13,215 bases of DNA from an uncultured bacterium (GTDB lineage: Bacteria > Desulfobacterota > Desulfobulbia > Desulfobulbales > Desulfobulbaceae): the NCBI GenBank assembly GCA_903896915.1, contig CAITZN010000109.1:1-13215 (forward strand), given 5' to 3'. This document shows, piece after piece, positions 6,434 to 10,284 of this stretch. The position numbers were made by a program, and so were the translations under genes. The number at the start of each line of letters is the position of its first letter. Position 1 is the stretch's first letter. The notes under the pieces are model-generated. The model made no database searches, was not told the DNA's origin, and was given only the letters and a program-made list of their open reading frames with translations.

Positions 6434-6801
6434 AAAGGGGTGAATGCATGGTCGCTCCGGCTCGCCGGAGAGGAAAGTCCGAACACCACAGGGCGCGGTG
6501 GTTCGTAACACGAACGTTGGGCGACTGACGGAAAGTGCCACAGAAAACACACCGCCGATGGGGCGTGCAAGCGCCCACAGGTAAGGTTGAAATGGCGAGG
6601 TAAGAGCTCACCGCCTCCATGGTGACATGGAGGGCAGGGTAAACCCCACCGGGTGCAAGACCAAATAGGGAGGCGCTTGAGGGCGGCCCGTCCAAAGCTT
6701 CCGGGTAGGTTGCAAGAGATGCCGGGTGACCGGTGTCCCAGTTAAATGATCATGGTCCGCCTCCGGGCGGAAACAGAATTCGGCTTATAATTCACCCCTT
6801 T
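6434..6801 (+). ncRNA. rnpB: RNase P RNA, bacterial type A
   Basis: The catalytic RNA of RNase P, which trims the 5' leader of tRNA precursors. Conserved blocks appear in order: GAGGAAAGTCC (6469-6480 region), CACACCGCCGATG, AGGTAAGAGCTCACCGC, GTAAACCCCACCGGGTGCAAG, ACCAAATAGGG, and ACAGAATTCGGCTTAT near the 3' end. Helix P1 is AAAGGGGTGAAT (6434-6445) with ATTCACCCCTTT (6790-6801). Hairpins with stable loops include CTCCATG-GTGA-CATGGAG (6615-6632), GGGCGT-GCAA-GCGCCC, and CCGCC-TCCG-GGCGG (6757-6770). The exact ends are inferred from P1. The P1 3' strand runs into a T tract (6799-6805) and probably ends transcription. A possible weak promoter (TTGATC 6376-6381, 17 nt, TATCCT 6399-6404) lies in the end of the RNase H gene; co-transcription from upstream is equally possible. 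Confidence 0.97.
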
Positions 6802-6805
6802 TTTT
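6799..6805 (+). terminator. T tract following rnpB helix P1
   Basis: The 3' strand of rnpB helix P1 is followed by seven T residues. Base-paired P1 plus this tract resembles an intrinsic terminator, but the helix closes over the entire RNA, so it would only work if the local CCGCC-TCCG-GGCGG hairpin upstream or P1 itself causes the pause. The next start codon, GTG of ispDF, is only 11 nt further on. Confidence 0.45.
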
Positions 6806-6816
6806 CTCAACAGCGC

Positions 6817-8022
6817 GTGCCAGATTACACTCTCCATCGCTCCCTAGCCGGGGTTATCATTCCGGCGGGGGGGATAGGTTCCCGCCTCGGTCATAAGCAA
6901 CCGAAACAATTCCTGCCTCTGGCCGGATTGCCCATCCTTGTCCGCACCTGCAGGGCCTTCCTCGATATGGAAGCGATCCGCTGCGTGGTTGTGGCTGCAC
7001 CTGCTGATTACTACCAGGCGACCATCGATCTGCTGCATCGGCATCTGAGCAAGCAAGAGATCGGAAAACTTATATTCACCATTGGCGGCGTTACCCGTCA
7101 GGATTCCGTCTTCGCCGGCCTGAGTGCGCTTCCTGACGATATATCGCTGGTTCTGGTCCATGATGCCGCCCGGCCTCTGATCGACCAAGCGACCATCGAT
7201 CGCTGTCTGCAGGGCGCTGCCCAGTACGGGGCGGTGATCGCTGCAGTCCCAGTCAAAGATACTCTCAAACAGGCTTCCCGCACGGGAATGATCGAAAAAA
7301 CGGTCGATCGCATTAGTCTCTGGCAGGCCCAGACCCCGCAGGCGTCTCAAAGGAAACTGCTTGAGCAAGCCTTTGCAGCTGCCGCCCGACAACAGTTTGT
7401 CGGTACTGACGAGGCCTCCCTTCTTGAAGCTGCCGGCATACCGGTTAGGCTTGTTGAGGGCACGGAACGCAACCTGAAAATCACCCATCCCGAAGATCTG
7501 CAGGTGGCGGCCGCCCTGCTGCAGGAGGAGCTGGTCATGAAAATAGGTCATGGTTTTGATGCCCATCGCCTGGTCTCGGGCAGGAAACTTATTCTTGGTG
7601 GTGTCACCATCCCTTTTGAACTAGGGCTTGACGGCCACTCCGATGCCGATGTCGTGGCCCACGCTTTGACCGATGCCTTGCTCGGCGCACTCGGTGCGGG
7701 CGATATCGGTCGCCATTTTCCCGATACCGACCCGCAATATAAAGGTATCAACAGCCTGCTTTTACTGGCCCAGGTGCAACAATTAGTGGCGGCGCGTCAG
7801 TGTCAGTTGGGTAACGCGGACATCACCATCGTCTGCCAGCGCCCCAAACTGGCCTCGTATCTTGCCGAGATGCAGGCCAATCTCGCCCGCTGCTGTAAGG
7901 TTTCCTCAGCAGCGATCAATATCAAGGCAACAACCACCGAAAAAATGGGGTACACGGGACGGGGCGAAGGGATTGCCGCCCATGCCGTGGTCCTGTTGAG
8001 GGCTGATCATGGAAGTGAATAG
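6817..8022 (+). CDS. ispDF: Bifunctional IspD/IspF: MEP cytidylyltransferase and MEcPP synthase
   Basis: A 401-residue fusion of two enzymes of the non-mevalonate (MEP) isoprenoid pathway. Residues 1-240 are IspD, which makes CDP-methylerythritol from CTP and MEP: nucleotide-binding IIPAGGIGSRLG with Arg23, PKQF with Lys30, VHDAARPL, and GTDEASLLEAAG. Residues 241-401 are IspF, which makes the cyclodiphosphate: GHGFDAHR (Asp248, His250), DGHSDADVVAHA (His282) and TTEKMGYTGRGEG near the end. Each half has the length of the stand-alone enzyme, so there is almost no linker. The enzyme between them, IspE, is not in the window. The GTG at 6817 is the only start codon between the end of rnpB and the IspD core; it has no clear Shine-Dalgarno. 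The 3' end overlaps the peptidase gene by 14 nt. Confidence 0.94.
   Translation: MPDYTLHRSLAGVIIPAGGIGSRLGHKQPKQFLPLAGLPILVRTCRAFLDMEAIRCVVVAAPADYYQATIDLLHRHLSKQEIGKLIFTIGGVTRQDSVFAGLSALPDDISLVLVHDAARPLIDQATIDRCLQGAAQYGAVIAAVPVKDTLKQASRTGMIEKTVDRISLWQAQTPQASQRKLLEQAFAAAARQQFVGTDEASLLEAAGIPVRLVEGTERNLKITHPEDLQVAAALLQEELVMKIGHGFDAHRLVSGRKLILGGVTIPFELGLDGHSDADVVAHALTDALLGALGAGDIGRHFPDTDPQYKGINSLLLLAQVQQLVAARQCQLGNADITIVCQRPKLASYLAEMQANLARCCKVSSAAINIKATTTEKMGYTGRGEGIAAHAVVLLRADHGSE
7523..7539 (+). promoter_or_regulatory. Internal Shine-Dalgarno and ATG at the IspD-IspF junction
   Basis: AGGAGGAG at 7523-7530 is followed by ATG at 7537-7539, in frame with the fusion, with 8 nt between AGGAGG and ATG. 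This ATG is exactly the first codon expected of stand-alone IspF (MKIGHGFDAHR, 161 residues to the stop). It is a stronger initiation signal than the one at the start of the fusion itself, so free IspF may also be made. Confidence 0.6.
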
Positions 8023-9219: not shown

Positions 9220-10284
9220 TTACTCAATAAACACTATTCCTGGGTCTGTTGCTCTCACTGAACCGATTATGCAACACTCCGGCGCGTATTCGCGTTGCGA
9301 GAGGGCTTCGAGCAGGAGTTTGGCTGGCTCTGCTTCCATGGCCAGCAGCAGGCCTCCCGAGGTCTGCGGGTCGTAGGCGATCAGCTCCAGGCTATCCATC
9401 TCAGCGAGTACGGATCGCACCCACGGGCGGTAAAAGTCCCGGTTGCGGTAGGCCCCTTCGGGGATAATGCCCATATCGGCAAATTCGTGCACTCTGGGCA
9501 GAATAGGCAGTGTAGCATGGTCAAGATGGATGGAAACCCGTGAGGCCTCCGCCATTTCGTGCAGGTGGCCGAGCAACCCGAATCCGGTGATGTCGGTGCA
9601 GCCGTGGACCCCGGCGCGAAGCTTTTCGTCTTCGTTGAGGATTTCCATGGGCAGTCGGTTGAGGGTCGCCATCAGCTCTACCAATCCTTTTTCTGTTGCT
9701 GTATCGGCAAGACCGCCTTTGATGGCTGTCGACAGGATGCCGGTCCCCAGGGGCTTGGTGAGCAGCACCACGTCGCCAGCCCTGGCACCACTGTTGCGCA
9801 AGACCCGTTCCGGATGGACCAGGCCGGTGACCGAGAGTCCGTATTTCAATTCCAGATCTTCGATGGAATGGCCGCCGACCAGGAGCGCACCGGCCTCCTT
9901 GATTTTTTCCAGCCCCCCTTCGACTACCCGGCGGAAAACTGACGGGTCCATGGTCTTGGCTGGACAGGCCAGAATGTTCATGCACAGAAGCGGCTTGCCT
10001 CCCATGGCATAGACATCTGACAGGGCGTTGGCAGCGGCAATGCGACCAAAATCATAGGGATCATCGACGATGGGCGTGAAAAAATCCACGGTCTGAATGA
10101 GGGCAGTAGTAGGGTTAAGACGGTACACCCCGGCATCGTCGCAGGTTTCCGTCCCTACTAACAGATTAGGGTCAAGGGGCAGATCAAGACCGCACAATAT
10201 CCGACCCAGGTCCCCTGGGCCCAGCTTGGCAGCTCAGCCTGCGGCTTTGACGGTTTGGGTCAGTTTGATGGGTGTTTGGGTCAT
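9220..10284 (-). CDS. selD: Selenide, water dikinase containing selenocysteine (UGA at codon 17)
   Basis: SelD makes selenophosphate from selenide and ATP, the selenium donor for selenocysteine and selenouridine synthesis. Reading the minus strand from ATG at 10284 gives MTQTPIKLTQTVKAAG, then TGA (10236-10234), then AAKLGPGDLGRIL, and continues in frame for 354 codons. Aligned by eye with E. coli SelD, the UGA falls on catalytic Cys17 and Lys20 is conserved, so the UGA should be read as selenocysteine. Downstream landmarks are NLLVGTETCDDAGVY, TVDFFTPIVDDPYDFGRIAAANALSD, VYAMGGKPLLCMN, GGHSIED, TKPLGTGIL, DITGFGLLGHL and DPQTSGGLLLA, all typical. GCAGGACAAA just before the ATG provides a Shine-Dalgarno. 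An ordinary gene caller would start at 10197 and lose the active site. No selA, selB or tRNA-Sec is in the window. Confidence 0.95.
10203..10221 (-). promoter_or_regulatory. SECIS-like hairpin after the selD UGA codon
   Basis: On the minus strand GGCCCAGG and CCTGGGTC form an 8-bp stem (one G-T pair) closed by the loop GGA. The stem begins 12 nt after the UGA and the apical loop 20 nt after it. A G at the first loop position and this spacing fit the known rules for bacterial SECIS elements, which recruit SelB to insert selenocysteine. Confidence 0.8.

Follow-up and report, generated by a model that had tools for sequence, protein, structure and literature searches.

A selD gene with a conserved in-frame UGA at its catalytic codon most likely encodes a selenoprotein in an uncultured Desulfobulbaceae bacterium

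The selD gene (selenide, water dikinase) of this uncultured bacterium is interrupted by a single in-frame TGA, and the question that it raises is how this codon is read. The window, that is, the whole stretch of 13,215 nucleotides that was analysed, is contig C109, one of the 734 contigs of a 3.2-Mb assembly (G000) that is 84.55% complete, and all selD coordinates refer to it. The gene occupies 9220..10284 of the minus strand (354 codons plus the stop codon at 9222-9220). Under table 11 the default open reading frame is 325 amino acids long and begins at TTG 10197. Reading through the TGA adds 29 codons, up to a proposed ATG start at 10282..10284 (minus strand) with AGGA 4 bases upstream, and gives a protein of 354 residues, which is the extension that the preliminary description of this DNA had put forward. 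The product scores 372.1 bits against the TIGR00476 profile (cut-off 125) and aligns with E. coli SelD (PDB 3u0o) over residues 1-342 with E = 1e-77. The claim that its N-terminus matches that of the E. coli protein was also correct: the first 36 residues align without gaps, the TGA (codon 17, 10234..10236, minus strand) falls on Cys17, and the conserved Lys codon at 10225..10227 (minus strand) falls on Lys20, so that the two proteins share the lysine and differ in having Cys17 in E. coli and UGA here. The codons around the TGA (GCA GGC TGA GCT GCC AAG, minus strand) give UAAK as the UxxK motif, with UGA in place of the catalytic Cys and the Lys three residues on, and codon 17 most likely specifies selenocysteine (Sec).

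Translation could instead start at TTG 10197 and produce a truncated, SelD-like product in which the catalytic loop is missing, as the 325-aa frame of table 11 would have it. However, such a protein would miss both Lys20 and the residue at position 17, all 30 genes that we inspected show protein-level conservation of the upstream codons around the TGA, and it is the ATG at 10284 that is preceded by AGGA; we give this start hardly any credence. Default annotation thus goes wrong here, as had been foreseen, and the right annotation of selD matters because the default gene call, starting at TTG 10197, drops the catalytic residue.

Conservation of the TGA was followed in 55 genomes of the order, our own assembly included, 23 of which belong to the genus. 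A SelD match with one in-frame TGA was present in 48 of the 55 (the gene being partial in G020 and G029), and a TGA-free selD was the sole copy in none of them; in the remaining seven (G007, G013, G019, G028, G030, G043 and G053) the SelD matches were weak, partial or absent. Within the genus, 20 of the 23 genomes had a SelD match, and all 20 had the TGA. The codon was read directly in the 30 best matches, each from a different genome and one of them from our own, and was TGA at codon 17 in every case; note that for the other 18 TGA genomes the result is an automated count of in-frame stops. A pseudogene or a sequencing error, the TGA having arisen by mutation or by misreading of TGC or TGT, might be suspected in one metagenome-assembled genome whose default call is shorter and runs from TTG 10197. 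Against this, 29 further genomes, drawn from the genus, family and order, carry the TGA at the same codon, and the rest of the frame is intact, its product being 60-85% identical to theirs (85% to the nearest relative, G010). We consider a mutation or misread exceedingly improbable.

No TGA-free selD was found in 43 of the 48 genomes that carry a UGA selD, and an extra TGA-free copy was found in five (G024, G032, G041, G045 and G051). The products of these extra copies are 55-59% identical to the SelD studied here over nearly the full length, but they differ from it in having TGC or TGT at codon 17, in a broken hairpin (see below) and in forming a clade of their own. In a tree of 95 SelD proteins, from which the distant TGA genes of 18 other genomes were left out, the 32 closest UGA genes (L001-L030, L051 and L052) form a single Sec-only clade with a support of 100/100, and the five Cys paralogues form a separate clade inside a group of 14 Sec and 5 Cys proteins. 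The Desulforhopalus SelD (L069), which has Sec, lies outside the 32-gene clade. When the set was widened to 91 typed loci, codon 17 was Sec in 64 and Cys in 27; typing required a Lys three residues on, 17 of the 80 loci of one search gave no type, and the duplicates L050 (= L002) and L053 (= L021) were excluded from this set and from the hairpin counts.

The second feature of the locus is a SECIS-like hairpin at 10203..10221 (minus strand), GGCCCAGG-GGA-CCUGGGUC, which begins 12 nt past the UGA and has 8 pairs, one of them G-U, and a GGA loop. In bacterial SECIS elements a loop G lies at a typical spacing from the UGA; here the loop G is 21 nt after it, and the stem-loop with an early loop G is as in those elements. 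We do not accept the hairpin as evidence on its own, since 656 of 5000 synonymous-codon shuffles (13.1%) of the single sequence reach at least 8 pairs and 4.6% fold as well; with dinucleotide shuffles z was -2.3, and 3 of 200 were as good.

A natural control comes from setting the UGA selD genes, which have the hairpin, beside the Cys paralogues, which lack it. Among the 32 UGA genes, all 8 pairs are kept in 22, 7 in nine and 5 in one, so that the 8-bp hairpin with its GGA loop, as originally described 12 nt after the UGA, is conserved with at least 7 of 8 pairs in 31 of 32; an unbroken stem of at least 7 pairs is seen in 26 of the 32. In the five Cys paralogues the peptide context is nearly identical, and only 5, 5, 5, 6 and 6 pairs are retained, in unbroken stems of only 4 or 5 (Mann-Whitney p = 6e-5 for UGA vs Cys genes, a statistic that ignores kinship). 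Over the 256 cells of the alignment of the 32 UGA genes, 95.3% are paired vs 93.7 +/- 0.5% in shuffles, with 0 of 500 as high, and versions of the alignment that were slid along reached at most 57.8%. The covariation score was 0.200 vs 0.169 in shuffles (2 of 500 as high). Neither the number of covarying pairs nor that of pair types exceeded the shuffles (as high in 477 and 482 of 500, respectively) because just one pair of the hairpin has changed on both sides, 7 genes having U-A there in place of C-G. In the wider typed set, a stem of at least 7 pairs was present in 45 of 64 Sec genes vs 4 of 27 Cys genes, counts that ignore kinship.

The assembly also contains a second standard Sec gene. 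FdhA (G000:C429:311-3361, L178; 1375 bits) has one in-frame TGA, read as UHSP, followed by a 9-pair hairpin; in the FdhA search, which covered 10 genomes, three passed the cut-off and each of the three matches had one TGA. FlpD (PF02662) counts on the other side: this family has Sec in two relatives at the level of the order, but its five matches in G000 are all free of TGA, and it gave no additional Sec gene.

The UGA is at codon 17, it is conserved, and the hairpin is kept in the UGA genes and broken in the Cys paralogues. These observations, together with FdhA, support well the original proposal that SelD is itself a selenoprotein, and we infer both the insertion of Sec and the activity of the enzyme. 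We regard it as very probable that the UGA is recoded by SelB and Sec-tRNA-Sec: the hairpin 12 nt downstream would guide this recoding, and the Sec inserted would stand in for the catalytic Cys17 of the E. coli enzyme. The family is not new, as had been acknowledged from the start: SelD was tabulated in 2006 among the selenoproteins of Desulfotalea psychrophila (Table 3 of PMC1794560), and Sec-containing SelD appears in the table of PMC13188914. As far as those tables go, the Sec-SelD of D. psychrophila and other deltaproteobacteria belongs to the same family (TIGR00476), with UGA at the catalytic codon and UxxK, and the species alone distinguishes the present gene from the D. psychrophila type. 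The dependence of selenophosphate synthesis on its own product, which had also been pointed out, holds for Sec-SelD in general. Thus, judged by its sequence, this Sec-SelD appears to be real and of a long-known kind; what would be new are a U73 tRNA that may bypass the self-dependence and a MetE-like gene with a UGA, both discussed below.

If SelB and Sec-tRNA-Sec recode the codon, the genome should encode the machinery. The preliminary description had taken the UGA to imply the presence of selA, selB and selC; none of them was found in the assembly, and the implication is still probably true. Profile searches of this 84.55%-complete assembly gave no selA over the cut-off and no full selB (the best match, E 1.5e-17, was under the cut-off), and a G73 tRNA-Sec was not found in a tRNA-Sec search with strict filters, in which 62 of 276 candidates were scored in G000. 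The only listed match to the tRNA-Sec family over the gathering score in this assembly is C393:5827-5921. Across the 55 genomes, selA was over the cut-off in 47, selB in 48 and the tRNA-Sec family over the gathering score in 52, a count that includes look-alikes. In G001, whose genome is a single contig, the three genes are widely separated, and if each were absent independently, the chance of missing all three would by our own estimate be about 0.4% (0.155 cubed).

That this species might have lost the Sec trait was weighed as an explanation for the absent selA, selB and G73 tRNA-Sec; neighbourhood comparisons favour gaps for selB and selA. Out of the 10 kb around selB of G010, G000 matches the last 0.5 kb (lon-like) and, elsewhere, 213 bases at 69%. 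The lon-like piece, about 3.4 kb from the selB position in G010, starts at base 40 of contig C265 of G000; since C265 begins inside the lon-like gene, the place of selB lies past a contig end. The 6 kb around selA of G009 have just two short matches in G000, of 115 and 52 bases. As for selC, the recA-like side of its surroundings in G010 is on contig C345 of G000 and the sequence diverges after it (names by inspection); the neighbours of selC differ in part between G009 and G010. An assembly gap is the likely explanation for the missing selB and selA, and for selC the comparison favours neither a gap nor a loss; since most relatives have selA, selB and selC and the place of selB is beyond a contig end, all three are probably encoded in sequence that the assembly lacks. 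In G010 an integrase-like ORF (by inspection) is found about 500 bases after the G73 tRNA-Sec gene (L047, G010:C25), which suggests that an element has inserted at selC there.

This match on contig C393 of our assembly is a tRNA-Sec look-alike (L040, 2828-2922, minus strand) with a UCA anticodon, an 8/4 fold and U73. Its D-arm resembles that of tRNA-Sec, the variable arm is long, the acceptor stem has 8 bp and the T-stem 4 bp (stems by inspection), and its 3' end, AACCAGUC-U-CCA, makes U73 the discriminator; the G73 tRNA-Sec genes of G001, G009, G010 and G022 end in CACUUCC-G-CCA. In the look-alikes of G001 and G010 the eighth acceptor pair is mismatched. The U73 type is present in at least 11 of the 23 genomes of the genus, G000 included, a count that leaves out two marginal matches (G013 and G016), and CCA is fully encoded in 6 of the 11. 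Nine of the 11 also have a higher-scoring tRNA-Sec match, G000 and G003 being those without it. Thus, about half of the genus carries a cysteine-type tRNA that could read the codon of selD. Another cysteine tRNA with an 8/4 fold, found in deltaproteobacteria, was reportedly described by Mukai et al. in 2017 as a mimic of tRNA-Sec that may act as an opal suppressor. A look-alike ending in CCAGUC-U-CCA was also seen in a different family of the order (L150, G054:C158, about 2797-2895). For the tRNA of G000, we gave up the initial idea of an additional tRNA-Sec of the ordinary kind because its discriminator is U, not G; G73 is described as essential for tRNA-Sec in the available part of the Secmarker paper (PMC5330540).

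Cysteine tRNAs of the selC* type, U73 and tRNA-Sec-like and some of them with a UCA anticodon, are described in the portion of PMC7609411 available to us. The tRNA of G000 resembles them in combining U73 with a tRNA-Sec-like body. It differs in its T-stem, UUGG/CCAA, which is without the A51a bulge (by inspection), and in having no selB* or cysS* beside it, although in the same portion of that paper such a neighbour is reported for some groups only. We have therefore not filed it under selC*. Its neighbours are an ABC-transporter-like ORF (by inspection) and TusA-, DsrE-, OsmC- and MetE-like genes. In G041 (L041, G041:C104), a selB copy adjoins a U73 tRNA with A1:U72 (by inspection), and further along the same stretch lie a YedF-like gene (by inspection) and a Cys-SelD. 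The arrangement resembles the selC*/selB* pairs in the accessible text of PMC7609411, with a TGA-free selD in addition.

The U73 tRNA of G000 might, from its sequence, read UGA as Cys. One can then ask whether the selD codon is read, wholly or partly, as cysteine by this tRNA, giving a selenium-free Cys-SelD. The tRNA is there in G000, where G73 tRNA-Sec, selA and selB were not found, and its type recurs in those 11 or more genomes of the genus; U73 cysteine tRNAs, some with UCA, have precedents in PMC7609411 as far as its available text goes, and the E. coli form of SelD has Cys17. However, the SECIS-like hairpin is conserved in the UGA genes, the other 10 U73 genomes include nine with the higher-scoring tRNA-Sec, nine with selA and ten with selB over the cut-off, and genus members such as G002 and G005, where the other tRNA-Sec type is the only one seen, share both the UGA and the hairpin. 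We hold a cysteine reading to be quite improbable. Less remote, and still unlikely, is a dual reading in part of the genus, in which the UGA would be decoded as Sec through SelB and the hairpin and as Cys through the U73 tRNA with its UCA anticodon. If this were true, the Cys reading would yield a selenium-free SelD and solve the problem of a Sec-SelD that needs its own product, and the U73 look-alike would be a backup under selenium starvation. No report of a Cys reading of selD was found in the literature searched, as far as its accessible text goes. Recoding of the codon to Sec remains our preferred reading.

About 60 bases after the U73 tRNA of G000 begins a run of TusA-like, DsrE-like, OsmC and MetE-like genes, in which the OsmC protein carries a weak TusA part (below Pfam's cut-off). 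The MetE-like gene (L040, G000:C393, 206-1378, minus strand; PF01717, E = 4e-35) has an in-frame TGA at codon 224. MetE-like matches were found in seven of the 55 genomes: six are full-length with one TGA each (G000, G003, G006, G020, G022 and G032), and the seventh is a TGA-free fragment in G019. Among 395 genomes sampled from the phylum there were five more distant full-length matches (42-52% identical), all five without TGA. The whole gene run is present in five of the six genomes with the UGA gene, the run of G003 being cut by a contig end. The U73 tRNA precedes it in G000 and G022; in G003, G006 and G020 the tRNA is on another contig and the run is not beside it, and in G032 the tRNA-Sec family search revealed no U73-type tRNA.

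The column of the TGA is occupied by Cys in 119 of the 120 best homologues, with one gap (the best 120 of 7977 hits, from 8000 candidates scored with a query that had C in place of U); note that the database consists of standard gene calls, in which full-length Sec forms would not appear. A stem-loop is predicted past the UGA in all six genes. H253, C255, E289 and C350 of the Cys homologue P0008, which we take to be the MetE zinc ligands, are invariant in the alignment. The AlphaFold model of P0008 has a mean pLDDT of 89.2, with residues 217-222, including the Cys of the UGA column, below 50. MetE-like proteins are absent from the available part of a table, published in 2026, that lists 119 families of prokaryotic selenoproteins (PMC13188914), in the text of which 'methionine synthase' and 'MetE' occur 0 times; among the literature matches listed, one contained the methionine synthase term, PMC5372852, by its available text a vitamin B6 review. 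The MetE-like UGA gene is thus a candidate for a selenoprotein family outside that table.

Finally, the window also contains an RNase P RNA at 6436-6803 (297 bits), which overlaps the start of an IspD-IspF-like ORF at 6733-8022 (named by inspection). Because of this overlap, the true start of the ORF is probably downstream of the listed one.
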